DNA of 64,000 bases from Sedimentisphaerales bacterium (GTDB taxonomy: Bacteria; Planctomycetota; Phycisphaerae; Sedimentisphaerales; SM23-30). Positions 6,708-22,603 of the stretch are shown here, piece by piece; position 1 is the stretch's first letter, and each line of letters starts with the position of its first letter. The notes under the pieces are model-generated. The model made no database searches, was not told the origin of the DNA, and worked only from the letters and a program-made list of their open reading frames with translations. The position numbers and the translations under genes are program-made. The stretch spans positions 1 to 64,000 of the forward strand of contig JAFGKT010000051.1 in assembly GCA_016928435.1 (NCBI GenBank), in the 5' to 3' direction.

Positions 6708-9452
6708 TTATATGTTTGCTCCAAGGCTTTCATACGCTGTGATGTAGCCTGCGACCATGCTCTCCAGGCTCCAGTTACGCCGTGCCTGTTCCATTATTCG
6801 TCTTGCTTGTTTGTGCCATTGGTCTTGATGTTGTCTAAAGTAGCGATGGTTCACCACCGTTTGCGTCAAGCCCCACCACAAACCGCTCGAGTCATAATCC
6901 TTGAATAGTACGCCGTTACCGCTGTCTTTCGGCGCTCCCCATTCGCGCAGTGCCAGCCGCACGATCTTATCCCGATACCCGCCCGTATTACGATTCGTCG
7001 CTGTTGCCCCGTAGATGTTGCCCACCACATCGATCTGGCCGAACGGCTCATAAAGCGACGCTCCAAAAACATCGCTGGCCGCGGCGTAACCCAAAATGCT
7101 TAAATCATTATTGAACCGCTTAACGGCTATCTGGCCCTGTGATGCGCAAGCGATACGTCCCAAAATCTCCACGTGTTCTCTATCTGCGCCTACCGGGTCT
7201 CCCACAATCGCGATTTGTACATCATGATTCTCAATCACAAAGCTAAGCGCTATATCTTCGAGCAGTTCCACTCCTTTTTGCAGCGGATCCAAACGTGAAG
7301 GCCAATACAACAAAATCGCTTCCGGGTCAACTTTCAAGCCCATCTGTTTTTGGAACTTCACCAGATTTTCTTTCTTGGCTTCCAGTATGTTGTCATTTGG
7401 TCCATATCGCCGCGCTAAACCTGGTTTGTCCCATTCTTTGTTTTCCTCTTGATTCTCCGGGTAAACGTCCGGCGAAATTCCGTTTGGTATTACTATTGCC
7501 GCGTTTGCCTTGTATTTGGCTTTTGTCTCATTGCGAACTCCCAACGGGATTATAGAGCGGTCTGAGAAATAGTCTTCCACTATCTCCTGTAAAAACGTCT
7601 TGCCCACATAGCTGACTTGCGTCGCGCTCTTGATCGCCGTAGCTTGGCAATCCACACATTCACGACCGGAATCAGCCACCATGTACATCCGCTCCCACAT
7701 CCGACCTATGTTTACCCCTTGCAGCATTTCAATCGGTACGTGTCCTGTGTGGGTATTATGCACCGTATGCAAAACCGGGATATCGTGATTGGCTGCGTAA
7801 GCTACGATCGGGCCACCCGCCATCCAATCATGCGTATGCACTATGGCTCGCCCGTCATACTGACTGCGAATTTCCCGTATGTAGGTATTGATTACCTGCC
7901 GTTGAAATTCCGCCGCCGTACGCAACGGATCGCCCTCGTAGGCGCTGCGATACTCATCATAGATCGATGATGTTACCAGATGCACGTTTTCAGGGTTCAG
8001 TTTGTGACGCCGCTGTACCCATTCCTGCTCGCTGATTTGCGATTCCTGCTGGAACCGTCGCGGCAAATTCAACGTTACCAAATGCGCCGGTATTTTCCGT
8101 TCAGTCAATCCTTTGCACAACGCCGATATCACATCACCCAACCCGCCGCTCTTACCCGAAACATACTGTGCGAATTTCCCCATCCCCGTCGAAGGCAACC
8201 TGCCGGTCTCCGGCGTAATAATTATGACCGCTGTCTCAACAGGCTTCTGTAAAATGTTAAAACTCTCAACCGCCCAGTCCAATCGGTCAATACTGCGAGT
8301 CAGAACAAATGTCGCTTTAGCTAACGACCCGTACGGGCTGAAATAATCATGCACCCCGCGGTCAGGCCCATGGCCCTCGTGCAAATAATACAAATGATCC
8401 GATGTCGTCAAATGGCGCCATTTCTTCAAGAAGTCCCCGCGTGCCCTCTTGGCATCACCCTCCATAGCTTCGATTTCTCTGAATAATTTGTGTTGAGTCT
8501 CACTGCCCAGCCAGCCGAACGTATTACGCTCGATATCCGCCCAACTCGATGTTGCCAATGGATGAATGTCAACCAGCGGACATTCCGTCTTTGCAAACTC
8601 TTGCGCTATCTCCGTTGGATTCATCAACACTATATTTGGATTATTCTCCAATTCCGCCGGCAGTCCCCGCCAAAAATCAAATATTCCCGTGTCCTCCCAA
8701 ATGTGTTCGCCGATATGCTCGTAATCATAGCCCAGAATAATCGCTTCGCCGTCCACCATCGCCATGCTCGATGCGTATTCCTTAGGCGTAATCTTCTGCC
8801 TCGGAAAACGAAACGCCACGTCGTCACTTAAATCCCTATTTCGGGGTAAGACCAGCAAATCCAATCCCCAGCCCGCCGGGCCCTTGGCGCGAAATATCGC
8901 GTTGGGCGATATCGGCGCGCCCGCTGACCGCAAATACATATCAGCACGCTGCTCACACAGAATCGACTTAAACCCCATTTCATTCACAATCGTACCAATG
9001 TCATTATTATACATCAGCTCCGTATTGCGAAACGATTGGGGCCTTGCGCCGAACAAGTCACGCATTGCTCCTCGGTGTTGCGAAACCTGATCCTTAAACT
9101 CATTCTTTGTCGGATCTTCAAACAGTGCCGTAAGCGAGTGGTAATATGTCTCTTCCAAATACTCCACTTGTTGATGTTTGCTGCCCGCCTCGTAAAGCTC
9201 ATGCAGCAGCGCAATGACATCAGGCTCATACATCTGAGCCTGTTCTAAGAATATTCCCGACATGCTCAGAGTTATCTTAAACTTCGGGTGAGCTTTGACC
9301 AAATCGATGAACATCCGCGTTGCGGGCAGATAACACTTCTTCGCGACCTTGCGGAAAACCGTTTCGTTTTGCTCTTCCCAGAGAAAGCTCCCGCCGTCCG
9401 GATCCAAGCGAAAAGGCTGATGCAACTGAAAATAGAACGTTACTATTGGCAA
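6708..9452 (-). CDS. GH57 amylase domain fused to GT5 glycogen synthase domain
   Basis: A 914-residue fusion for storage glucan metabolism. Residues 1-385 are a GH57 domain: LHQPF near the start, FRNTE with the likely nucleophile E145, and GYDYEHIGEH with the likely acid D243. Residues about 405-900 are a GT5 glycogen synthase with the KSGGL nucleotide-sugar loop (434-438), a THDW motif, and the C-terminal EPFG...NTGGYRD region. The second of two in-frame TTG codons (9452) has AGGAG six bases upstream, while the first is directly adjacent to it, so I choose 9452. No signal peptide is seen. It stands alone on the minus strand. Both domains keep their key residues. Whether the GH57 half cleaves, branches or transfers glucan is not clear. 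Confidence 0.88.
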   Translation of the reverse strand: MPIVTFYFQLHQPFRLDPDGGSFLWEEQNETVFRKVAKKCYLPATRMFIDLVKAHPKFKITLSMSGIFLEQAQMYEPDVIALLHELYEAGSKHQQVEYLEETYYHSLTALFEDPTKNEFKDQVSQHRGAMRDLFGARPQSFRNTELMYNNDIGTIVNEMGFKSILCEQRADMYLRSAGAPISPNAIFRAKGPAGWGLDLLVLPRNRDLSDDVAFRFPRQKITPKEYASSMAMVDGEAIILGYDYEHIGEHIWEDTGIFDFWRGLPAELENNPNIVLMNPTEIAQEFAKTECPLVDIHPLATSSWADIERNTFGWLGSETQHKLFREIEAMEGDAKRARGDFLKKWRHLTTSDHLYYLHEGHGPDRGVHDYFSPYGSLAKATFVLTRSIDRLDWAVESFNILQKPVETAVIIITPETGRLPSTGMGKFAQYVSGKSGGLGDVISALCKGLTERKIPAHLVTLNLPRRFQQESQISEQEWVQRRHKLNPENVHLVTSSIYDEYRSAYEGDPLRTAAEFQRQVINTYIREIRSQYDGRAIVHTHDWMAGGPIVAYAANHDIPVLHTVHNTHTGHVPIEMLQGVNIGRMWERMYMVADSGRECVDCQATAIKSATQVSYVGKTFLQEIVEDYFSDRSIIPLGVRNETKAKYKANAAIVIPNGISPDVYPENQEENKEWDKPGLARRYGPNDNILEAKKENLVKFQKQMGLKVDPEAILLYWPSRLDPLQKGVELLEDIALSFVIENHDVQIAIVGDPVGADREHVEILGRIACASQGQIAVKRFNNDLSILGYAAASDVFGASLYEPFGQIDVVGNIYGATATNRNTGGYRDKIVRLALREWGAPKDSGNGVLFKDYDSSGLWWGLTQTVVNHRYFRQHQDQWHKQARRIMEQARRNWSLESMVAGYITAYESLGANI

Positions 9453-10067
9453 AACCAACTCCTATATGTCTGTCTCAGAAATTGTCCGCCTTGACTTGCC
9501 CGAAAGTATAAGCGTTTTGTATTTGGGGTATAAGTTCCATCTAACAAGCCTTATCGCCGGGAGTTCTTGGCGAAATTTTCTCTTCAATGGCTCTCTTCTC
9601 CATCGCTATTTCCTACGGCACAACTACCAAATGCTATTAGTCATTGTTTTATAGCGTCTTGCCGGCAAATTGTCCAACTTCTTATTATATAGGCTTTTAG
9701 CTAAATATGTCCCGCACGATGCCGAAGTTGTCTCTTCTGATCAGCAAATTACCTATACTGCCGTCTGGTTAAAATTTTGCTGTTATCAGTCTTCGCTATC
9801 TTGCTCAAATGTCATATGGTTTGTTGCATCTCAGAGCCAATGATTTTTTTTGCCATCTCGCCCGCTGCGACAATATTTAGTACGACTGCAAGCTGGGGCG
9901 CTATTTTGGAGCCAACATATTTTGTACGCCGCTAGAGTGTGGATTGCCTTGAGGCTGTGTTTTCTGCATTGATAACGGGGGGCAGAAAAGCACTTGGCGT
10001 CTTGACCATTGTCACCGGTGGGGGGCGGTGGGGGGCTGCGGTGAGAATATTTGAAAAAACTCACAGG

Positions 10068-10076
10068 TTATCCACA
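10068..10076 (+). promoter_or_regulatory. Perfect DnaA box
   Basis: TTATCCACA matches the bacterial DnaA box consensus exactly. A weaker opposite-strand match TGTGGATTG lies about 120 bases to the left and TTATCCGCT about 320 bases to the right. A single perfect box can occur by chance. Confidence 0.4.
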
Positions 10077-10260
10077 AACGGCCGATAAAAGAAAAGTGAA
10101 GTTCTGTTCGGATGATGTTTGGTTGGCGTTAAGAAACCCGTGATCTTGAATTTAGTAATGGTGTGTATCTCCTTTCCCTAGAGTGAGATATCGAGCTAGA
10201 CAACAAATGGCATTATTTATCGGCCAAATGTAAAAAGGCGAAAATTTTTTCTTGTATTCG

Positions 10261-10320
10261 TGGGAATATGTGGTAAAGTTTGGATAGAAATGGGAGCTTA
10301 GGGGATGAGGTGGTGGTGCG
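10261..10320 (+). promoter_or_regulatory. MraZ-type box array upstream of mraZ
   Basis: Six units starting with TGG or GGG recur at exact 10-bp spacing: TGGGA (10261), TGGTA (10271), TGGAT (10281), TGGGA (10291), GGGGA (10301), TGGTG (10311). MraZ of Escherichia coli is known to bind TGGGN repeats spaced by 5 bases upstream of its own gene. The array ends 146 bases before the mraZ ATG. Confidence 0.75.
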
Positions 10321-10466: not shown

Positions 10467-10946
10467 ATGCTGTTGACCGGTGAATATGACTTGACGTTAG
10501 ACGAAAAGAACCGGCTGTCTATACCGGTACGCTTGCGTCAGCAGATTTTCCCGCGAGATGATTTTGATAATGTGTTGTATCTGATGACAGGGTTTAATCA
10601 GATCCTGTGTTTGTATCCTGAGAGTGAGTATCGACGCATCGCCCTTGCCGTGGCTCCAGGGAAGGTGGCCCCGGACGAACTGCTCGTTTATGAACGAGTT
10701 GGTTTTGCTCTGGCTAGCAGGGTTGAGCTGGATCGGCAGGGACGAGTGCTTATAAGTGATAAAGCCATTCGTCGCGCCGGACTCAAAGAGCAGATTGCGT
10801 TGATTGGGGCTCGGGATCATTTGGAATTGTGGAATCAGGATGAGTGGGAGACCTATTTGGTCGAACACATGGCAGAACACGAGCAGATGGTCCTGCAAGC
10901 AAGGCAGGAAACATATCGTAAGCAACGCGAAGAAGCTGGTTGGTAA
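10467..10946 (+). CDS. mraZ: Transcriptional regulator MraZ
   Basis: A 159-residue protein of the MraZ/AbrB-like fold, first gene of the division and cell wall cluster. It starts MLLTGEYDLTLDEKNRLSIP, the standard first MraZ motif, and repeats the fold as VELDRQGRVLIS in the second half. GAAGG lies six bases before the ATG at 10467, which fixes the start. A TTG 18 bases upstream is less likely. MraZ binds a repeated box upstream of its own gene and represses the cluster in other bacteria. The array at 10261-10320 fits that role. Confidence 0.95.
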   Translation: MLLTGEYDLTLDEKNRLSIPVRLRQQIFPRDDFDNVLYLMTGFNQILCLYPESEYRRIALAVAPGKVAPDELLVYERVGFALASRVELDRQGRVLISDKAIRRAGLKEQIALIGARDHLELWNQDEWETYLVEHMAEHEQMVLQARQETYRKQREEAGW

Positions 10947-11040: not shown

Positions 11041-11385
11041 ATGAGTATTATAGAGAAAAGCGGACGCGGAACAGCAAAGCGGGAAATGACTTATGAGCAA
11101 GTGAGTAGCCAACCGACAGTAATGTTGCGGAGTTGGACCGATGCTGCCTGCGATCAAACTCTTATTGGTCAATTGCAGCATGCCTTGGAGGGTCGCACGG
11201 TTCTGCGATGGGAAGATTTGGATATGGCGATTCGGGTAAGATTGCGAGTGGTTGCCCAACGTTTGCAGAAGGTGCGAAGATTCGGGGGGATGTATGCGGA
11301 GCTTTCTCTTTCACCGCAGCTCGAGGCGATTTTTAGTCTTATGCCCACGCCCGAGAATACTGAGCATGAAATGTTGATTAACTAG
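11041..11385 (+). CDS. Small unknown protein between mraZ and rsmH
   Basis: A 114-residue protein without a recognised function. AAGGAGG ends 12 bases before the ATG, and the gene ends 9 bases before rsmH, so it is a real member of the cluster. The C-terminal half (RLQKVRRFGGMYAELSLSPQ, then LEAIFSLM) recalls the last helix-strand-helix of STAS-type anti-sigma antagonists, but the N-terminal part does not fit well. No membrane segment or signal peptide is seen. It occupies a place that is normally empty in this cluster. Confidence 0.7.
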   Translation: MSIIEKSGRGTAKREMTYEQVSSQPTVMLRSWTDAACDQTLIGQLQHALEGRTVLRWEDLDMAIRVRLRVVAQRLQKVRRFGGMYAELSLSPQLEAIFSLMPTPENTEHEMLIN

Positions 11386-11394
11386 GGGAATGTT

Positions 11395-12303
11395 GTGGAT
11401 TCTCCGGCAGCTCATCAGGCGGTACTTTTTGATGCAGTTATGCAACAACTCGACTATCGCCCCGACGCGGTAGTGGTTGATGCAACCTTGGGACATGCCG
11501 GGCATGGGCGGGCGCTGGCGGAGAGATTGAACGCCGACGGCTTGCTGCTGGGATTGGATGTGGACGAAAACTGCTTGGCGGTGGCACGACATCGTTTGGA
11601 CAATACAACTTGCCAAGTTAAATTGATACAAGAGAATTTTGGTTCTCTCTCTGGTGTGCTGGATCAGCTAGGGCTTGAGGCGGTCGATGTGATCTTGGCG
11701 GACCTGGGTGTGAACTCGGCCCAATTGGCTGAATCATCTTATGGTATAAGTTTTCAGCAAGACGGGCCGTTGGATATGCGGCTGGATCGTCGCTTACAAT
11801 CTACCGCGGCGGATTTAGTTAACGGTCTGCGGCAGGACGACTTGGCTGACATTATCTATAAGTATGGCGAAGAACGTCGCAGTCGCGCCATTGCCCGAGC
11901 CATAGTCGAACGTCGCCGTGAAAAACGCTTTTGTAATACCGGCGAATTGGTAACGGTGATCTTCAAGGCTCTGGGACTTAAAGGCAGCGGCGGCCGCAGC
12001 AAGATACACCCAGCGACGAGAACCTTTCAGGCTTTGCGTATCGCTGTGAACGATGAATTGGGGCAGTTGGAGCGTTTGCTGGACGCAGCGGCTCAACGCC
12101 TCAAAATTGGCGGTCAGGTAGCGATCATCAGTTTTCACAGCCTGGAAGACCGTATCGTAAAATATGATTTTCGGGCCCGCAAGGAAGCCGGAATATACGA
12201 AATAATGACCAAAAAACCATTGGTCGCCGCCGAAGACGAACGAAAACAAAACCCACGCAGCCGCAGCGCCAAACTGCGTGTCGCACGTAAGATCGGTAAC
12301 TGA
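11395..12303 (+). CDS. rsmH: 16S rRNA (cytosine1402-N4)-methyltransferase RsmH
   Basis: A 302-residue SAM-dependent methyltransferase (MraW) acting on 16S rRNA. It begins with the family pattern HQAVLFDAV and the SAM-binding VVDATLGHAGHGRAL. Further family motifs are LADLGVNSAQL, GPLDMRLDR, HPATRTFQALRIAVNDEL and ISFHSLEDRIVK. The start is a GTG with AGGGGAA upstream. It follows the 114-residue unknown by 9 bases and sits in the usual place after mraZ. Confidence 0.96.
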   Translation: MDSPAAHQAVLFDAVMQQLDYRPDAVVVDATLGHAGHGRALAERLNADGLLLGLDVDENCLAVARHRLDNTTCQVKLIQENFGSLSGVLDQLGLEAVDVILADLGVNSAQLAESSYGISFQQDGPLDMRLDRRLQSTAADLVNGLRQDDLADIIYKYGEERRSRAIARAIVERRREKRFCNTGELVTVIFKALGLKGSGGRSKIHPATRTFQALRIAVNDELGQLERLLDAAAQRLKIGGQVAIISFHSLEDRIVKYDFRARKEAGIYEIMTKKPLVAAEDERKQNPRSRSAKLRVARKIGN

Positions 12304-12410
12304 ACAAGCCTAAGTTGACGCTGCATGAACCGCTGACGCCAACTTGGATAATCTAAATAATAGTACGATTTGTAACTCTTGGGCCACGGAAGGTAAAACG
12401 GAGTTGATCC

Positions 12411-13628
12411 ATGACAAAAGAAGCAAAAGTTGGGTTGTTGTTGGGATTATTGTTGATCATTGGAATTGCCGTGGTCTTACGTGGCGTACATCGAGATGGC
12501 CAACAGCAAAACAGTGATGAACTCCGCCGGATATCGCAAGAATATTCACCTTCCTCGGGTAACACCGCGGTCACTCAAGGCGTCCAGCGGCTATCCAACG
12601 GGACGACTAACTCGCCCACACGTTCTACGCCCCCCGCTGCTAATCGCTCGCAAGCCCCCGCGCCTTCTCAGATAGCCCGCAACGATACCCCTGCCGGTTC
12701 TCAAAGTACACTATCGGCTAACCAATCTTATGCTCCCACCAGTGTAATCGCCACTCAGAATAACAACGATGTTCGTTACACAAGTCCGTTGCCTTCTTCC
12801 CGCTCGACGGATGATCCGGGCTTGGTTCATCCTATGCCGGGAGCTATCGATAATGCTGCTCAAAGAGCGGTTGCTTCAGCCAGTCAGTCGAATACCCCCA
12901 CGATTTACGGCGGCAACAGCCCTTCATCTTCCAGTGCTGGCACAACTGTAGTCAACGCTCAGTCGTCACAGCGAAGAATTCATGTCGTTCGTGATGGCGA
13001 CGATCTCAGCAAAATCGCTTTGGAAGTGTATGGCCCCGTAGAAGGACGCCGTTGGATCAATGTCTTGGCGATCTACGAAGCCAACAACGATATCTTGACG
13101 TCGATGGATGTTCTTCGCGTTGGACAGAGTTTGCGTATTCCGCCTTTAATGGTCACCGGAGTGCCTGCTTCCAATGCGTCATCGAATTCAGTTCAAGCTA
13201 TTTCACAAGTAAACACTCCTGCTGCTTCCGCGCCTTCCAACAGCGGCCAGGTTTATGTGGTTCGCGAAGGTGATTCGCTTTGGAGAATCGCCCAAAGACA
13301 ATTGGGTGACGGTAATCGGCACGAAGAAATACTCGCCCTGAATCGTGATCGCATCAGTGACCCTGGGCGCCTAAGAGTAGGTCAAAGCCTGCGTATGCCC
13401 GCCGGAGCTGCCGCTTCCACTACTGTTGCCCAACAGCAGCCCCAAGCAAACACGACCGCATCTGTGTCAACCCGCAGTTATACGGTTCGTGAAGGCGATA
13501 GTTTGTGGTCAATTGCCGCGCAGCATCTAGGTAATGGTGAACGCTATCATGAAATCGCGTCGTTGAATTCCGATGTCCTCAGTAATGAAAATTCGCTGCG
13601 TACGGGATTGGTCTTGCGGCTGCCTTGA
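12411..13628 (+). CDS. Membrane-anchored protein with three LysM domains
   Basis: A 405-residue protein. Residues 6-25 form one membrane helix (VGLLLGLLLIIGIAVVLRGV) that would anchor it in the inner membrane with the rest in the periplasm. A Ser/Pro/Gln-rich linker reaches to about 185. Three LysM modules follow, each opening with V(R)DGD or VREGDSLW and closing with LRVGQSLRIP-like sequence, the last ending at the stop codon. LysM binds peptidoglycan. GGAG precedes the ATG by 7-8 bases. It lies between rsmH and the ftsL-like gene, which suggests a role in wall synthesis or division. The insertion of a LysM protein here is unusual. Confidence 0.88.
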   Translation: MTKEAKVGLLLGLLLIIGIAVVLRGVHRDGQQQNSDELRRISQEYSPSSGNTAVTQGVQRLSNGTTNSPTRSTPPAANRSQAPAPSQIARNDTPAGSQSTLSANQSYAPTSVIATQNNNDVRYTSPLPSSRSTDDPGLVHPMPGAIDNAAQRAVASASQSNTPTIYGGNSPSSSSAGTTVVNAQSSQRRIHVVRDGDDLSKIALEVYGPVEGRRWINVLAIYEANNDILTSMDVLRVGQSLRIPPLMVTGVPASNASSNSVQAISQVNTPAASAPSNSGQVYVVREGDSLWRIAQRQLGDGNRHEEILALNRDRISDPGRLRVGQSLRMPAGAAASTTVAQQQPQANTTASVSTRSYTVREGDSLWSIAAQHLGNGERYHEIASLNSDVLSNENSLRTGLVLRLP

Positions 13629-13680
13629 CCTTGACCAAAGGACCCAACAATATTCTTGAGTTTATACCTGCTGGTTTGAT

Positions 13681-13968
13681 TTGATAGTGGATTCCAAACG
13701 TTTAGCTTATGTTCTGTTCCTGGCCTTGCTGATAGGTCTAGCGCTGGTTCATCTGCGCACAACGCACCGGCGCAGAGTCTGTCAAATAACCATGCTTATG
13801 CAGGAAGCTCGTCAAGTGGAGCAGCAATTGCCCCGGCAGCAGGCCGAGCTTAGCGCTGCCCTTCAATCACCCCAGCAGCTTCGTAGGCAATTGGAGAATA
13901 TTGAAACCGATCTATATCCCATGGGTATGGCACCCACCGGAAGCGATTGGCTCGCTGATAATCAGTAA
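13681..13968 (+). CDS. Small FtsL-like membrane protein
   Basis: A 95-residue protein with a short cytoplasmic tail, one membrane helix (about 9-25) and a predicted coiled coil rich in Gln and Glu (about 38-80). Size, topology and position directly before ftsI match FtsL, a divisome protein that is too variable for reliable sequence recognition. The start is either TTG (13681) or GTG (13687), and neither has a clear ribosome binding site. The gene ends 9 bases before ftsI. Confidence 0.65.
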   Translation: MIVDSKRLAYVLFLALLIGLALVHLRTTHRRRVCQITMLMQEARQVEQQLPRQQAELSAALQSPQQLRRQLENIETDLYPMGMAPTGSDWLADNQ

Positions 13969-13977
13969 TCAAAAATT

Positions 13978-15750
13978 ATGTCCTTTGATCGTCGAGAACG
14001 TTGGCTTGGTGGCACACTATTGGTCGTAATCGTCCTGGGGTTGGCCGGCGTTTTGACGCGCGTCTATTTTCTTCAAACAACCGCCCAGCCGGAGCTGGCT
14101 CACCGGGCCGCGGTACAGCAACTCCGTATTGTCTCCGATACCCCGCAACGAGGAATGATCGTCGATCGCCAGGGACGCACTTTGGCTGTGAGTACACAGG
14201 TCCGTTCGATAGCGGTTGATCCATCTCTAATTACAAACGTTGATTTGGCAGCCGAACAACTAGGCGCGGTTCTGGAAATTTCCCCTGACGATCTGCGTAA
14301 CCTAATCGAACAATATCGTGATCGTCGTTTTCGTTGGGTCAAACGTTTCGTAACCGATGAGCAAGCCGACGCTGTGGCTGCGTTGGGCATTCATGGAGTG
14401 CTTATCCAAACCGAATATCAACGCCGGTACCCAATGGGCTCCTTGGCGGGCCACATTATAGGTTTCACCGACATTGATGGCTGTGGTCTTGAGGGCATAG
14501 AGGCGCTCTTTCAGGATGACTTGGCCGGCGATTCCGGCACTCTGTTGCTCAACAGCGATGTACACCGTCGTCCTTTGGCTTGCCAAGACGGCAGCAGCCG
14601 AGGTCGCGACGGTCTCACCGTTGCGCTGACCATCGATGCCGCGATTCAGGGTTTTGTCGAAGAGCAATTACAGCAGACAGTCGAAAGATATAACGCCGCC
14701 GGGGCCGTGGGTATTGTAATGGATCCCCAAACCGGAGAAATCTACGCCTTAGCCAACTACCCCGGTTTTTCGCCCGCCACCGCCCGTCAGTGCGATCCAA
14801 ATCTGTTGCGCAATCGAGTTCTTACCGATCCGATAGAGCCCGGCAGTACATTTAAGCCTTTTACCGTCGCCGCGGCAATCGAGTATGGCCTGGTAAACCC
14901 CGATACGCGGATCGACTGCCACAACGGCCGTTATTCCGGAAGAGGTTTCGGTACCATTCGCGAATACAACTATCATCGCTACGGTATGTTAACCGTCGCG
15001 GAAATAATCATGCGTTCCAGCAACATTGGCTCAGCCATCATGGCTCAAAGAGTAGGTAAAAGCAGATTCTACGAAATGTTGCAGCGTTTTGGCTTTGGTC
15101 GCCGCACCGGAATCGACCTACCCGGCGAAGGTGTCGGCATTCTCAGACCATTGGAACAGTGGAACGACCACGAATACACACTTACCCGCGTAGCTTTTGG
15201 GCAGGGAGTCGCTGTTACGCCAATTCAATTGATCAGGGCGTTTTGTGTTTTTGCCAACGGTGGACAGTTGGTTCGCCCTCGTTTAACCCGAGGACTGCTC
15301 GACCAGGCCGGTAATGTCGTACGCGATTTTACCCAGGAAGAAGCACTTTGGCCCTTGCGTGTGGAAGGCGACCCTACAGATTCACGCCAAGTCATAGCTC
15401 CTGAGGTCGCCCGCGTAATGGTCGAAGATATACTTCTCGGTGTGGTTGAACGCCGTGAAGGTACCGCCCATAACGCTTTCTTGCCCGGTTATGATGTCTT
15501 TGGCAAGACCGGAACCGCTCAAGTGCCGCTAAGTGATGGTCGCGGATACGAGGAAGACAAATATGTGGCTTCTTTTATTGCTGGGGCGCCCGCGTATGAT
15601 CCCCGGCTGTGTGTGTTGGTTATGGTACGTGAACCGGATCGAAGTTTAGGCCTTGGTTATACCGGCGGACGCGTGGCAGCACCGCCTGTACGCGAAATAC
15701 TAAGGCAAAGTCTGGCGTATCTGCAAATTCCGCCTCGCAACTTGGAATAA
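13978..15750 (+). CDS. ftsI: Penicillin-binding protein, FtsI type (class B transpeptidase)
   Basis: A 590-residue division-specific transpeptidase, anchored by an N-terminal membrane helix (10-30) with the catalytic domain in the periplasm. The dimerisation domain (RGMIVDRQGRTLA at 58-70) is followed by the transpeptidase domain with S290-TFK, SSN (347-349) and KTGT in FGKTGTAQ. No PASTA domain is present. It lies between the FtsL-like gene and murE, as in the standard cluster order. Confidence 0.95.
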   Translation: MSFDRRERWLGGTLLVVIVLGLAGVLTRVYFLQTTAQPELAHRAAVQQLRIVSDTPQRGMIVDRQGRTLAVSTQVRSIAVDPSLITNVDLAAEQLGAVLEISPDDLRNLIEQYRDRRFRWVKRFVTDEQADAVAALGIHGVLIQTEYQRRYPMGSLAGHIIGFTDIDGCGLEGIEALFQDDLAGDSGTLLLNSDVHRRPLACQDGSSRGRDGLTVALTIDAAIQGFVEEQLQQTVERYNAAGAVGIVMDPQTGEIYALANYPGFSPATARQCDPNLLRNRVLTDPIEPGSTFKPFTVAAAIEYGLVNPDTRIDCHNGRYSGRGFGTIREYNYHRYGMLTVAEIIMRSSNIGSAIMAQRVGKSRFYEMLQRFGFGRRTGIDLPGEGVGILRPLEQWNDHEYTLTRVAFGQGVAVTPIQLIRAFCVFANGGQLVRPRLTRGLLDQAGNVVRDFTQEEALWPLRVEGDPTDSRQVIAPEVARVMVEDILLGVVERREGTAHNAFLPGYDVFGKTGTAQVPLSDGRGYEEDKYVASFIAGAPAYDPRLCVLVMVREPDRSLGLGYTGGRVAAPPVREILRQSLAYLQIPPRNLE

Positions 15751-15968
15751 TGACCTCTTTCAAACGTATATTCGTTGCAAAGTTACGTAATTTGAATATA
15801 ATATTTGTGTAGGTGAGCGATACGAGTTTGCTTTTGCGCTCAATGGGTGGGGTTAGCCTAGGATGGGCTGGCGCGCTATCGCGGATCGTTACTAAACGCT
15901 GCCTAACCGAAGCTTTGAATGTAATTCTCTCGGTGTGCAGTTGTCGCTGCGAGGAGGATTGGTCACAA

Positions 15969-17516
15969 ATGGATTTGTCTGACCTGGTAGCCTCGCTTTC
16001 TACCTTCAGTCGCGATAGTGACGTGTGTCACGCTGCGCCGAATGTATGTCAAGACAGCCGAACTGTTAAACCCGGTGATATTTTCGTCGCTGTGCCGGGT
16101 ACTAATGTTGATGGTCATGATTTTGTCAATGATGCCGTTAGTCGCGGCGCTGCCACTGTTGTCGCTCAAAAATCATTGACTGTACCTGAAGATGTACGCT
16201 TGGTCATCGTCGATGACAGCGCATCGGCTTTGGGAATTCTCTCTCAAGCCGCCAACGGCAGCCCAGCCCGGCAACTCACATTGTTAGGCGTTACCGGCAC
16301 CAATGGTAAGACCACTGTTGCCTATCTTACCCATGCTATCCTCAATTCATCCAATTTTCCTGCCGGCATGATCGGAACCGTAGCATATGACACCGGCAAC
16401 GGCCAAAAAATAGCAGCCGACAACACAACTCCAGATGCGCCGCGTTTAGCTCAAATGATGGCGGATATGCGCCGCTGTGGTCAAAAAGCCGTTGTTATGG
16501 AATGCTCCAGTCACGGCTTGGATCAACGTCGCACCGCGGGCCTCAGCTTCAACGCCGCGGCATTCACCAACCTTACCGGCGACCATCTCGACTATCACCG
16601 CACACGCCAAGCGTATCTTGACGCCAAAGCCAAACTCTTCGAGTCTCTTACGACCGACGCTGTGGCTGTCCTAAATTTTGACGATCCCGTCGCCGCGATT
16701 CTTGCTCAGCGCACCCAAGCCAAAACTTGGCGCTATGGTGTGGATTGCACCGATGAATCAGTCGAAATTCGCGCCCAAATCAAAGCGATGGGACTGTGGG
16801 GTTGCGATCTGCGGTTGGAGGTTATGGGCGAATCAGCGGATCTGCGCCTTGCGTTGCCCGGCCGTCACAATGTCAGCAACTTACTAGCCGCTGTAGGCCT
16901 GGCTCATGCCGTGGGAATCCCATTGCGAAATATTGTCGCCGCCGCTCAAGCCTTTCATGGAGTGCCCGGACGATTGGAACGCGTTGATGCCGGACAAGAT
17001 TTCACCGTCCTGGTTGATTATGCCCATACCGATGACGCCTTGGCTAATGTGCTGCAAGCCCTCAGCGATTTGCAGCCGCGGCGCATAATACTTGTCTTTG
17101 GTTGCGGCGGTGATCGTGACCGCAGCAAACGACCACGCATGGCGCGAGTCGCCCAGCAATTCGCTACCGAAATCATTGTCACCAATGACAACCCGCGAAC
17201 CGAACAGCCGCAACAGATTTTCGAGGATATCTACGCCGGTTTTGATCTTTCTTCCCAACATAACGCTATTCACCAAATACCCGATCGACGCTCAGCTATC
17301 GCCCATGCGGTAGAAATGGCCCAGCCCGGAGACGCCGTTCTAATTGCCGGAAAAGGACACGAAGATTATCAACTTGTGGGAGATCGCCGACTGGAATTTG
17401 ATGACCGTGTTGTGGCTCGACAGCTTTTGCAGCAGCTTCAAACCGCAACCCAAAACAGAACTCATTATTCAAAACATAAAACCACCACCGCCCATAAACG
17501 GCAACCGACAATGTGA
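15969..17516 (+). CDS. murE: UDP-MurNAc-L-Ala-D-Glu:meso-DAP ligase MurE
   Basis: A 515-residue cytosolic ligase that adds the third amino acid of the peptidoglycan stem. The frame is open from 15813, but AGGAGG lies 11 bases before the ATG at 15969 and only the part from there resembles MurE, so I start there. It has DSRTVKPGDIFVA in domain 1, the ATP loop GVTGTNGKTT (107-116), and DNPR (407-410), the signature for meso-diaminopimelate rather than lysine. The GTG start of an alternative murF form overlaps its stop codon. Confidence 0.95.
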   Translation: MDLSDLVASLSTFSRDSDVCHAAPNVCQDSRTVKPGDIFVAVPGTNVDGHDFVNDAVSRGAATVVAQKSLTVPEDVRLVIVDDSASALGILSQAANGSPARQLTLLGVTGTNGKTTVAYLTHAILNSSNFPAGMIGTVAYDTGNGQKIAADNTTPDAPRLAQMMADMRRCGQKAVVMECSSHGLDQRRTAGLSFNAAAFTNLTGDHLDYHRTRQAYLDAKAKLFESLTTDAVAVLNFDDPVAAILAQRTQAKTWRYGVDCTDESVEIRAQIKAMGLWGCDLRLEVMGESADLRLALPGRHNVSNLLAAVGLAHAVGIPLRNIVAAAQAFHGVPGRLERVDAGQDFTVLVDYAHTDDALANVLQALSDLQPRRIILVFGCGGDRDRSKRPRMARVAQQFATEIIVTNDNPRTEQPQQIFEDIYAGFDLSSQHNAIHQIPDRRSAIAHAVEMAQPGDAVLIAGKGHEDYQLVGDRRLEFDDRVVARQLLQQLQTATQNRTHYSKHKTTTAHKRQPTM

Positions 17517-17524
17517 GAAAAACT

Positions 17525-19012
17525 ATGAAACCTTTGACTCAGGATGAGGTTAAAAATGTATTGCACGCGGAGTTGAAAACCGCTTTGGGATCCGATCTGG
17601 TCCGACGCGTAACCACCGATTCTCGCGATGTTAAACCGGGCGATTTGTTCTTTGCTATTCGGGGCGAACATTTTAACGGCCATGACTTCATCGACCAAGC
17701 CATCGAAGCCGGCGCCGTAGCTATTGTAATGGACCTAAATGTCCCTGCTTCGGATATTGCCCGCCGTCAGAAAACCTGTCTGATGAAAGTTCCCGATACC
17801 ATCGCGGCTTTGGGTACTCTCGCCAAATATTATCGTAATAGCCTAAAGCATCGCGTAACCGTTATCGCTGTCACCGGAAGCAATGGCAAAACCACTACTC
17901 GCGAGATGATCTACCACGCCTTGAGCAAACCCAAACGCGGTTATCGCAGCCCCGCCAGCTACAACAACAATATCGGCGTTCCCTTGACCCTGCTGAATAT
18001 CGGCGCCGAACACGAATTCGCCGTCATAGAAATCGGCAGCAACGCTCCCGGTGAGGTAGCCGAGTTGTCCCGCATGGCCTGCCCCGATATTGCAGTCATT
18101 ACCAGCGTCGGCCCGGCTCACTTGGCTGGATTTGGAGATGTCGAGGGTGTCAGCAAAGAGAAATGTTCTATTATTGCCGGGCTCAAAGAAAGAGGCGTCG
18201 TTATCTGCAGCGCCCAGCATCAAGCAACCCTAGAACGAGTCCGTGCGTTGGGACGTCCAATGATATCTTTTGGTGTGGATGTGGATGCCGATGTCTCTGC
18301 CCACGATGTTGTTATCGAGCCGGGACGAGTCAGTTTCAAAACCAATGATCGTTGCGAGATCACTCTGCCCATCGCCGGAACCCACAATGTCTCCAATGCC
18401 ATGGCTGCCTTGGCTACCGTACGCCGTCTGGGAGTGTCCACCAGCCAGTTCGCCGCGGCTATGACTGATTTCAAAATGCCTCCAGGACGCATGAACTATC
18501 TCGATTTCAACGGCATTACGGTTATTGATGATTCGTACAATGCCAATCCCGCTAGTATGGCCGCCGCGTTAGCTGAATTGCAAAGCCATCGTGATGCCCC
18601 ACGCCGTGTGTTGATTTGCGGCGATATGGGCGAACTGGGCCCCGCATCACAGCAGGAACATCATAAACTGGGTGAGCGGGTGGCGCGGTCCAACATCGAT
18701 GCGCTGCTGACGGTCGGCAAACTCGGTGCGGTCGCGGCAAAAGCCGCTCTGGAAGCCGGTATGGGACGCGGTTCCGTACAACGCGCCGTTACCAGCCAAC
18801 GTTTGGCACGGCTTGTAAAAACATTGATCAATGACGGCGATGTGATCTTGGTCAAAGCGTCACGTATGATGCGTATGGAAGCTGTCGTTAAGAGTTTAAG
18901 CCGGTGGCGCGGCAGTGGAACAAAAATTTCCGCTTCGACTACCGTACGCTCGGCTACCCGCGACATACCATCTAAAACGCCTGCCAGGCATTATGTTCCA
19001 AACAAGCAATAA
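17525..19012 (+). CDS. murF: UDP-MurNAc-tripeptide:D-Ala-D-Ala ligase MurF
   Basis: A 495-residue Mur ligase that adds D-Ala-D-Ala. It has DSRDVKPGDLFFAI in domain 1, the ATP loop VTGSNGKTTTREM, the central domain with NYNNNIGVPLTLL-like sequence, and DDSYNANPASM in domain 3, which is typical of MurF. The GTG at 17513 overlaps the murE stop codon. The ATG four codons later is preferred because it has a purine-rich GAGAAAA upstream. The C-terminal 40 residues are basic and extend beyond the usual end. Confidence 0.94.
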   Translation: MKPLTQDEVKNVLHAELKTALGSDLVRRVTTDSRDVKPGDLFFAIRGEHFNGHDFIDQAIEAGAVAIVMDLNVPASDIARRQKTCLMKVPDTIAALGTLAKYYRNSLKHRVTVIAVTGSNGKTTTREMIYHALSKPKRGYRSPASYNNNIGVPLTLLNIGAEHEFAVIEIGSNAPGEVAELSRMACPDIAVITSVGPAHLAGFGDVEGVSKEKCSIIAGLKERGVVICSAQHQATLERVRALGRPMISFGVDVDADVSAHDVVIEPGRVSFKTNDRCEITLPIAGTHNVSNAMAALATVRRLGVSTSQFAAAMTDFKMPPGRMNYLDFNGITVIDDSYNANPASMAAALAELQSHRDAPRRVLICGDMGELGPASQQEHHKLGERVARSNIDALLTVGKLGAVAAKAALEAGMGRGSVQRAVTSQRLARLVKTLINDGDVILVKASRMMRMEAVVKSLSRWRGSGTKISASTTVRSATRDIPSKTPARHYVPNKQ

Positions 19013-19075
19013 ATTATCTACTATTGAGTCTGACATATGGTTATAGTCTGTTCTATTTTGAGGTGACAACCAGAT

Positions 19076-20218
19076 ATGCTGCTGCTATTGATGCGACATT
19101 ATCGCGAGTTTATGCACGGTCAGTTGCACTTCTATGCCTGGGAAGACGTAGCCTTTCGTATGGTGCTGGGGGTGTTGACCAGTCTCATAATTTCGCTCCT
19201 GTGGGGGCCAAAAATAATCCGTTGGCTCATCCTCAAAAAAGTCGGTGATATCCCCGAGTTCGACCACAAAGACCTCAACGAGCTGACCAAAAACAAGACC
19301 AATACTCCGACGATGGGGGGGCTGCTTATCTTGGCTGGTGTTCTTATCAGCACTTTGCTCTGGGCTGATATCACCAACCAGTTTGTTATCAAGGGCATTT
19401 TCCTTATTGTGTGGTTGGCGGTCTTGGGCGGCATCGACGATTGGCTTAAACTCACCGCGAAAACCAAAAAACGTTCACGCGACGGCCTGCGCAGTTGGGA
19501 AAAACTTGTTTTCCAAGTAGGCCTTAGTGTCCTATTGGCGATGTTTCTTTATCTTGTGGACTTCCGCGAAATTCAAGACGGCAGGGCGATCTGGCTGCCG
19601 TTCTACAAAAAAGGAATCGATCTTGGCTGGATCGGTTTCGCTATTGTCACCGTTCTGGTAATCACCGGCTCAAGCAACGCTGTCAATCTAACCGACGGAA
19701 TGGACGGCTTGGCTACCGGATGCATGGGAATCGCCAGCATGGTATTTGCTGTTCTCTGTTACTTAGCCAGCGAACCGCTTAGTGTTTCCATGAACCAAAC
19801 CTGGGCCAGCTATCTCCTTTTGCCTCAAATCCGCGGCGCCGGCGAACTGGCTATCATATGCGCCTCGATATTCGGCGCCTGTCTAGGTTTTCTTTGGTTC
19901 AATTGTCACCCAGCACAAGTTTTTATGGGCGATGTTGGAAGCCTCCCTTTAGGTGGGCTGATCGGCTATGCCGCGGTAGTGACTCGTCATGAACTACTGC
20001 TGCTTGTAGTGGGCGGCGTCTTTGTTATGGAAGCTGTTAGCGTTATCATCCAGGTCACGTATTATCGCAGCACCGGCGGCAAACGCATATTTCTTTGCGC
20101 GCCTATTCATCATCATTTTCATCTGAAAGGCTGGAGCGAACCGCAAGTGGTGGTTCGTTTCTGGTTGATGGGAATCGCTTGCGCCGCGATCGCCTTGGCG
20201 ACGCTGAAACTGCGTTAG
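19076..20218 (+). CDS. mraY: Phospho-MurNAc-pentapeptide translocase MraY
   Basis: A 380-residue polytopic membrane enzyme that makes lipid I. It has about ten membrane helices and the family motifs TPTMGG, GGIDDWLKL with the catalytic Asp pair, NAVNLTDGMDGLATG, and HHHFHLKGW near the C-terminus. The first cytoplasmic loop is slightly longer than usual. GAGGTG lies 11 bases before the ATG. An ATG at 19091 is possible. In the standard order murD would follow, but ftsW comes next. Confidence 0.96.
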   Translation: MLLLLMRHYREFMHGQLHFYAWEDVAFRMVLGVLTSLIISLLWGPKIIRWLILKKVGDIPEFDHKDLNELTKNKTNTPTMGGLLILAGVLISTLLWADITNQFVIKGIFLIVWLAVLGGIDDWLKLTAKTKKRSRDGLRSWEKLVFQVGLSVLLAMFLYLVDFREIQDGRAIWLPFYKKGIDLGWIGFAIVTVLVITGSSNAVNLTDGMDGLATGCMGIASMVFAVLCYLASEPLSVSMNQTWASYLLLPQIRGAGELAIICASIFGACLGFLWFNCHPAQVFMGDVGSLPLGGLIGYAAVVTRHELLLLVVGGVFVMEAVSVIIQVTYYRSTGGKRIFLCAPIHHHFHLKGWSEPQVVVRFWLMGIACAAIALATLKLR

Positions 20219-20256
20219 AACCTGCGCCAAATACCTTGCTTTGAGGAAATCTCGTC

Positions 20257-21471
20257 GTGGCAACCGAACCGTCTAACCCGTCAGGCAAAACCTCCGGATC
20301 TCTTGTAGAATCGGTTTTCGTTGTCGCTGTCACAGCGTTGATGTGCCTGGGAGCATTGATGGTTTTCTCAGCAGGCGTCACACTCGAGCAGGACATCCAA
20401 TGGTATCAGTTTTGGCGATACACCACCTTAAGGCAAGTTGTCCTGGTCCCCGTAGCGTGGCTGATTCTCCTCCTGATGGGGCGGTTGTCGTATCGCAAAT
20501 GGCTCGCCAACAGCGACGGTACTCCCGGTGTCATCATCGTATTGCTGCAATTCATAGCCGTTGCTGCTTTGGTCCTTGTCTTGGTGCCCGGCATCGGCAC
20601 CGAAGTCAACGGCGCCAGACGCTGGATTAAAATAGGGGCCTTCACCTTCCAACCCTCGGAACTGGCCAAGTGGGTTACGGTTTTATTCTTGGCGGTGTAT
20701 GCTTATTGGCGGGGTGATAAAATGCGCAGCTTTTGGCGAGGCTTTGTCCCCGGCGCAGCGGTTCTGCTCATTGTTGTAGCATTGATCGGCAAGGAAGATT
20801 TCGGTACTGCCGCGCTTCTAGGCCTGGTCGGCACCGCCATACTGCTGATCGGCGGCGCTCGTTGGTGGCATGTATTGATATTGGTTCCATTGGCTGCCGC
20901 TGCGTTCTATGTCTTGGTCTATTCTAATGAATACCGTTGGAATCGTGTCTTGGCTTATATGCGTCCCACCGACCAACAGCAGCAGGCCACCGCTTACCAT
21001 GCCCAGCAATCACTGATAGCCATCGGTCACGCGGGTCTGCACGGCACCGGTCTTGGCCAAGGAACCATGAAAATGGGTTTTCTGCCTGAAGACACCACGG
21101 ATTTTGTCTTTGCTGTCATCGCTGAGGAGTTGGGCTTTGCCGGTGCGGTAGTAATCGTAGCATTGTTCGGTGTTTTGATGCTTTGTGCCGTCTTGATGAT
21201 CTGCTTCTCCGCCGATCGCCTAGCCCGTCTAGTAGTCGTTGCCGTAGCTGCTACATTGGGCGCGCAAGTTCTAATGAATTTGATGGTTGTCACTAGCTTA
21301 GCTCCCACTAAAGGCATCGCCTTGCCTTTTGTTAGTGCCGGCGGATCGGGACTCATTCTAACCGCCATGGCCGCCGGAGTATTGGTTAATATCGCACGCA
21401 ATATACCTCGGCAGCGCAATCAAACTCTAGCTCCTGCCGACATCCAGCATGGAGACGCCGGTTGTGAGTGA
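20257..21471 (+). CDS. ftsW: Peptidoglycan glycosyltransferase FtsW
   Basis: A 404-residue SEDS-family membrane protein that polymerises lipid II at the division site. It has about ten membrane helices, with the QPSELAKWV, TDFVFAVIAEELGF and LPFVSAGGSG motifs that define the family. The start is GTG with GAGGAAA upstream. The end overlaps murG. murD, normally placed before ftsW, is absent. Confidence 0.95.
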   Translation: MATEPSNPSGKTSGSLVESVFVVAVTALMCLGALMVFSAGVTLEQDIQWYQFWRYTTLRQVVLVPVAWLILLLMGRLSYRKWLANSDGTPGVIIVLLQFIAVAALVLVLVPGIGTEVNGARRWIKIGAFTFQPSELAKWVTVLFLAVYAYWRGDKMRSFWRGFVPGAAVLLIVVALIGKEDFGTAALLGLVGTAILLIGGARWWHVLILVPLAAAAFYVLVYSNEYRWNRVLAYMRPTDQQQQATAYHAQQSLIAIGHAGLHGTGLGQGTMKMGFLPEDTTDFVFAVIAEELGFAGAVVIVALFGVLMLCAVLMICFSADRLARLVVVAVAATLGAQVLMNLMVVTSLAPTKGIALPFVSAGGSGLILTAMAAGVLVNIARNIPRQRNQTLAPADIQHGDAGCE

Positions 21472-22603
21472 ACCTGAGTTGTTTGTTTTTGCCGGGGGAG
21501 GAAGTGGCGGACATTTGTATCCGGGACTCGCTGTCGCCCAAGCCCTGCGACAATTGAACCAGAATGCCCGAATTCTCTTCTTAGCGACCCAGCGCGATAT
21601 TGATCAGCAAATCTTGGCTGACTGCGGCTTCGATTATCTTTCGCAGCCCGTAGTGCCGATTCCTAGGCGGGTGCGCGCGATATACGACTTCTACCGTCGT
21701 TGGCGCACCAGCAAAAAAATGTGTCGCAAAATCATACGTGATAATCCTGTTAAAGCCGTACTTGGCTTGGGCGGATTCGCGTCAGGCCCTATGATGCAAG
21801 TCGCCGCTCGCGCCGCCGTACCCGTAGCTATGCTTAATCCGGATGCCGTCCCAGGACGCGCCAACCGGTTCGGTCAGCGCAAAGCTCAACGTATCTTTCT
21901 TCAATGGGACGATAGTATCAAATACTTCGGCGCCGCTGCTGATAAGTGTTTAGTGACCGGTTGCCCTATTCGTGCCGATTTCACCGCCGCCCGAAAAACA
22001 TCACCAAGTTCGCATCGTCAAACCTTGAATCTTGCCTCGGATAGCAAAGTGTTAGTGATAGTGGGGGGGTCGCAAGGCGGAAAAAACCTCAATGATGCTG
22101 TGTTATGGGCTTTGACTCAATCCAACGGCACCGACTTGTTGAATGGTTGGCAAATATTGCATTTTACCGGCAGTGCCGATTACGAACGAACAGCGCAACA
22201 ATATCGCGTCCAAAATCTTTCTGCTATTGTGCAGCCCTTTACCAATCAAATGCCCGCCGTTCTTAGCGTCGCGAATCTTGTTATCGCGCGCGCCGGGGCA
22301 TCTACTCTGGCGGAATTAACCGCCATGGCAGCCCCGAGCATTTTGCTTCCCTACCCCTACCATCGCGACCAACACCAATTGCGCAATGCCCAGGTTCTAG
22401 CCCAGGCCGGCGCCGCTGAAATTGTCGCCGATCAGTGCGATGCAAAACTAACCGGAGAACAATTGGTCAAAACCATCGAAACCTGTATAATGGGGCGAAG
22501 TCGATTGGCCCAAATGGCTCAAGCGGCAGTTAAGATAGGCAAACTTGATGCGGCGGTTCAAATTGCTAAAGAGATGATAAGCATGGGCCGTCCAAACCCT
22601 TGA
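21449..22603 (+). CDS. murG: Lipid II-forming N-acetylglucosaminyltransferase MurG
   Basis: A 384-residue peripheral membrane GT28 enzyme that adds GlcNAc to lipid I. It has the AGGGSGGHLYPGLAVA nucleotide-binding loop, GLGGFASGP, LNPDAVPGRANR, GGSQGGKNLN, and the donor site ARAGASTLAEL followed by PYPYHRDQHQ. The ATG at 21449 overlaps ftsW by 23 bases. A GTG at 21464 has GGAGA about 8 bases upstream and may be the true start. It is the last wall gene here. murC, murB, ddl, ftsQ, ftsA and ftsZ do not follow. Confidence 0.95.
   Translation: METPVVSEPELFVFAGGGSGGHLYPGLAVAQALRQLNQNARILFLATQRDIDQQILADCGFDYLSQPVVPIPRRVRAIYDFYRRWRTSKKMCRKIIRDNPVKAVLGLGGFASGPMMQVAARAAVPVAMLNPDAVPGRANRFGQRKAQRIFLQWDDSIKYFGAAADKCLVTGCPIRADFTAARKTSPSSHRQTLNLASDSKVLVIVGGSQGGKNLNDAVLWALTQSNGTDLLNGWQILHFTGSADYERTAQQYRVQNLSAIVQPFTNQMPAVLSVANLVIARAGASTLAELTAMAAPSILLPYPYHRDQHQLRNAQVLAQAGAAEIVADQCDAKLTGEQLVKTIETCIMGRSRLAQMAQAAVKIGKLDAAVQIAKEMISMGRPNP

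Follow-up and report, generated by a model that had tools for sequence, protein, structure and literature searches.

In the window, by which we mean the whole 64,000-nucleotide stretch of Sedimentisphaerales DNA that was analysed, a 1,008-bp intergenic region separates a leftward GH57/glycosyltransferase gene (6708-9458) from the rightward mraZ (Table 1). The mraZ product has the two SpoVT/AbrB-like domains with DXXXR motifs that characterise the MraZ protein family (DEKNR and DRQGR, in which D12, R16, D89 and R93 are invariant in alignment A1), and is similar in sequence to the solved MraZ chains 9qlr, 9qlg and 1n0e; a literature search on recent MraZ structures found no paper. The gene heads a dcw cluster in which a small ORF and rsmH (mraW, 11395) are followed by genes for a LysM protein, another small ORF, an FtsI-like PBP and two Mur ligases in murE/murF order, and then by mraY, ftsW and murG. 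The small ORF between mraZ and rsmH has a C-terminal part (around RLxRVRSWGGxxSEIDFSP) that is kept among family members and, weakly, across the order. FtsZ was sought and not found in this genome, whose completeness is about 85%.

Table 1. Genes and predicted regulatory elements at the mraZ locus (positions in the window; bit scores from the box model described in the text)
Feature	Position	Strand	Basis and remarks
Distal MraZ-type site, TGGGGGGCGG TGGGGGGCTG CGG	10019..10041	+	Box model; candidate boxes at 10019 and 10029, third degenerate
DnaA box, TTATCCACA	10068..10076	+	Fits TTWTNCACA; the window has 3 such boxes
CCGATAA element	10082..10088	+	14 bp after DnaA box start
Putative -35, TTGTAT	10252..10257	+	Predicted from sequence; 16 bp before putative -10
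Candidate MraZ box 1, TGGGA	10261..10265	+	7.2 bits; slot kept in relatives L004-L013
Candidate MraZ box 2, TGGTA	10271..10275	+	12.0 bits, top box; overlaps putative -10; TGGTA conserved in family
Putative -10, TAAAGT	10274..10279	+	Predicted from sequence; inside box 2
Candidate MraZ box 3, TGGAT	10281..10285	+	2.8 bits; weak
Candidate MraZ box 4, TGGGA	10291..10295	+	7.1 bits
Degenerate slot 5, GGGGA	10301..10305	+	-3.8 bits; lacks the T, probably no box by itself
Candidate MraZ box 6, TGGTG	10311..10315	+	11.0 bits; context GTGGTG
mraZ (159 aa, two MraZ domains)	10467..10946	+	PF02381, E=1e-22, two stretches
Small ORF between mraZ and rsmH	11041..11385	+	No Pfam match; conserved in family
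Rest of wall/division cluster	11395..22603	+	Pfam

Six words follow one another at exact 10-bp steps on the forward strand of the intergenic region (10261-10315: TGGGAATATG TGGTAAAGTT TGGATAGAAA TGGGAGCTTA GGGGATGAGG TGGTGGTGCG), beginning 206 bp upstream of the mraZ ATG (10467). They had been picked out by a model working from the letters and open reading frames (hereafter the sequence-only reading), and all six were found where it had placed them. TGG is present in five of the six slots, giving at least three direct repeats at a 10-bp period, and the array is placed as an MraZ operator would be, upstream of mraZ at the head of the dcw cluster. With a box model whose training set consisted only of genomes outside the window's family, 10261 is the best phased site of the 64-kb window, its six-slot score being 38.0 against -2.1 at the next independent site. 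The slots themselves score very differently (7.2, 12.0, 2.8, 7.1, -3.8 and 11.0 bits), and for this reason the site is to be described as five credible boxes and one degenerate slot, not as six equal boxes: the earlier count of six MraZ boxes holds for five of them and fails at slot 5. The third slot is also the weak one in the relatives L006 (TAGG) and L012 (TGTA).

The array overlaps a putative promoter, whose hexamers are poor matches to the consensus and would by that measure make a weak promoter; a generic promoter scan did not report the pair (10252, 10274). The placement finds parallels in related genomes. Family members have TTG at about the corresponding -35 place, box 2 of most relatives contains TANANT in the matching position, and in sister families TTGAC precedes the first box and a TATAAT-like sequence lies within box 2.

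Conservation of the array in Planctomycetota

Upstream regions of mraZ were gathered from the family, order, class and phylum, the nearest named relatives being Sedimentisphaerales and Phycisphaerae MAGs of the Planctomycetota. Of 151 Planctomycetota sequences, 142 have a phased 10-bp array (score of at least 15) ahead of mraZ; on the reverse strand of the same regions the number is 7, and with periods of 9 and 11 it is 20 and 24. Exact words behave likewise: in 97 of the sequences the coding strand has 169 TGG pairs spaced by 10 bp and the opposite strand 3, and for a spacing of 20 bp the counts are 89 and 4. The comparison with related planctomycetes that the sequence-only reading had proposed, a search for conserved 10-bp TGG phasing, was thus strongly positive, and its assignment of the words to MraZ, as boxes ahead of mraZ and the wall genes, is borne out by the PF02381 gene heading the dcw cluster and by the conservation of such arrays at mraZ promoters.

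At least four exact TGG boxes are present in 8 of 10 family relatives, the remaining two (L006 and L012) being without box 3 only, and four is the typical box number in the family. Two to four slots are usual among the 151 regions, and six are reached in just two of them, the present site and L100. The array had been described as longer than the three boxes of Escherichia coli, which it is, and it likewise exceeds the four that are usual in its family.

Another arrangement, TGG-N7-TGG-N8-CCCA, occurs in 68 of the 151 regions, against at most 3 occurrences for any other tested spacing and 0 on the reverse strand. The regions that carry it fall within L014-L032, L071-L083, L091-L096 and L125-L172. 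Since CCCA, and in three cases ACCA, are found at this spacing and GCCA and TCCA never, the third box of these sister families is apparently an inverted TGGK box at fixed spacing; alternatively TCCCA may be a conserved start-site motif, its distance to the -10 also being fixed. In 51 cases there is also a GTGG at a distance of exactly 41 bp from box 1. Order-level relatives (L014-L173) also have a nearly invariant GTCC[TG]ATAATAAAATTTT, whose commonest position is 56-58 bp before MraZ box 1; it may be another regulator's site or an upstream promoter element.

Six slots or four

The fourth boxes of the family mostly read NAGTGGT[GT][AG], and this pattern is fitted better by the present box 6 (AGGTGGTGG) than by the present box 4 (AAATGGGAG). 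The resemblance suggests that the family's array of four slots was enlarged here to six, by an expansion of 20 bp (two helical turns) between the old boxes 2/3 and 4. It could instead be that the true operator is the four-slot array seen in relatives (10261-10295) and that the words at 10301 and 10311 arose by chance in a G-rich stretch, given that four boxes are the standard of the family, that slot 5 scores negatively, and that a box in slot 6 was looked for and found in none of the family relatives, a set without a same-genus genome. We regard this as unlikely, though of appreciable weight, in view of box 6 itself, which lies exactly in phase, reaches a score that about 0.02% of window positions match and has a GTGGTG context closer to the family fourth box than that of the present box 4, and in view of the five TGGs in six slots, a result that one shuffle out of 20,000 gave when the intergenic sequence was permuted with its dinucleotides preserved.

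The distal site and the DnaA box

A second MraZ-type site, absent from the sequence-only reading, starts 242 bp upstream of the array. At 10019 lies the second-best independent two-box and three-box phased site of the 64-kb window, after 10261, and the exact TGG/TGG pair at 10 bp is found at the distal position in L004, L006, L007 and L013 and in part in L005 and L012. Downstream of the distal boxes a DnaA box (TTWTNCACA) is present in six genomes, namely that of the window, L004, L005, L006, L007 and L012. The distal TGG words precede it by 29, 39 or 49 bp in most of the six, L012 being slightly different, and CCGATAA starts 13-14 bp after the DnaA box start in five of them. The pattern CCACAN{3,7}CCGATAA occurs once in the whole genome to which the window belongs, at this locus.

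The module at 10019-10088, consisting of the distal TGG/TGG pair, the DnaA box and CCGATAA, is at least partly present in L004, L005, L006, L007 and L012, and L010 and L011 instead show two copies of TGTGGATAA, which are DnaA boxes of the opposite strand, together with CCGATAA. CCGATAA (10082-10088) and its reverse complement TTATCGG (10214-10220), both located between the distal site and the array, make up an inverted pair separated by about 130 bp. The distance of 242 bp from distal to promoter site becomes 221, 226, 256, 348 and 212 in relatives; helical phasing between the two sites was rejected on account of these inconstant distances, and looping stays a guess for the same reason.

DnaA may act on the dcw promoter. 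A stronger reading, by which the region would be mainly a replication origin or a DnaA-controlled element that the TGG boxes serve instead of MraZ, could draw on the perfect DnaA box at 10068 and on the five family relatives in which such a box is spaced almost constantly from the distal TGG boxes. It is highly improbable, for just one DnaA box lies near the array, GC skew has no lasting sign change across mraZ (it is positive at 10-12 kb only, and to either side mostly negative or close to zero), one of two dnaA candidates has three DnaA boxes of its own nearby, and the TGG array is kept in numerous mraZ promoters that have no DnaA box. Identity as oriC was rejected on the single DnaA box and the GC skew. 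Two genes with a Bac_DnaA domain are present in the genome (G000:C66:76247-76726 and G000:C18:81015-81482; L111 and L112), the three DnaA boxes being near the second.

Of negligible probability is a by-product of a G-rich, skewed or low-complexity stretch with no regulator behind it: GC skew is indeed positive in the array region, with flanks that differ, and 1 kb of that region holds 23 TGGs, but at least four consecutive TGGs at 10 bp appeared in only 3 of the 20,000 shuffles of the 1,008-bp intergenic region, and the geometry recurs upstream of mraZ throughout the phylum on one strand only, so that chance and composition were both rejected. Further MraZ targets in the genome were sought by the exact pattern of four TGGs at 10 bp alone; it has two occurrences in the whole 3.07 Mb, the copy other than the array being inside a 699-codon open frame.

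Discussion

MraZ is among the most widespread bacterial regulators, and its operator has been studied in few phyla. The array described here is very probably a real MraZ operator, an element of a known kind that is unusually long in this genome and is accompanied by an additional distal site. On its sequence and setting, we consider it highly likely that it is the operator at mraZ's own promoter and controls the dcw cluster. In the mechanism that we propose, MraZ produced from 10467-10946 would act on its own promoter and hence on the dcw cluster behind it, with successive subunits of the MraZ ring reading direct TGGK boxes, one per 10 bp. Box 1 would lie in the promoter spacer, box 2 over the -10, and boxes 3-6 over the start and the early transcribed region, and in this placement bound MraZ would be expected to keep RNA polymerase off. 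As MraZ would cover both the -10 and the start and is a known repressor in E. coli and elsewhere (PMC8475190, PMC7761207), the function that we consider most likely is repression by MraZ of its own promoter, that of the dcw cluster. The smaller candidate MraZ site 242 bp upstream may add binding sites or permit a loop.

Eraso et al. reportedly described in 2014 the E. coli mraZ operator, with MraZ boxes that are TGGGN direct repeats. We find the boxes of strain MG1655 (TGGGAAATTG TGGGGCAAAG TGGGAATAAG) as the sequence-only reading had given them, and at an exact 10-bp period. Both operators therefore lie upstream of mraZ and consist of direct repeats with a TGG core at this period, but E. coli has three boxes close to the ATG, whereas here the array starts 206 bp from it, counts five credible boxes over its six slots and has a distal pair in addition. 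Because E. coli shares the exact period, the spacing of 10 bp, which had been taken to distinguish the present array, is instead the general period of MraZ operators. The helical phase that had been called perfect is not so either, since the DNA helix has 10.5 bp per turn, and over six boxes a step of 10.0 bp falls out of register with it by about 2.5 bp. In suggesting cooperative binding by the ring and strong autoregulation, the sequence-only reading likewise went further than sequence allows.

Other known systems resemble the array in part. In gel shifts, Burkholderia cenocepacia MraZ binds a fragment with a predicted site of four 7-nt repeats with 3-nt spacers (PMC7761207), which likewise amounts to 10-bp repeats upstream of mraZ, but these four lie downstream of the -10. 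The MraZ site of Mollicutes consists of AAAGTG[T/G] repeats as quoted in PMC8475190 from Fisunov 2016, and to the extent of that quotation the planctomycete box consensus AAGTGGK matches it, although the phylum is another and box number and promoter context differ. Other Sedimentisphaerales have arrays at 10 bp that overlap the likely promoter, with four slots in the family in contrast to six here, and many sister-family members are unlike the present site in having two direct boxes, an apparently inverted third box and a box at +41.

The 10-bp period is kept across the phylum, and box number (2 to 6 slots), third-box orientation and the distal site vary; such variety provides ready-made material for testing how a ring protein counts its boxes. 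A more far-reaching proposal would have MraZ control the wall cluster from two operators, the promoter array and the conserved distal pair by the DnaA box and CCGATAA, with the MraZ ring bridging both and DnaA-dependent replication initiation thereby linked to wall and division output. This is doubtful, and we put it forward tentatively. To our knowledge, the Planctomycetota are a phylum mostly without FtsZ. What most deserves further attention is the conserved geometry together with the DnaA neighbourhood, and if the DnaA box by the distal MraZ site is bound, a link between replication and division would become testable in bacteria that divide without FtsZ.
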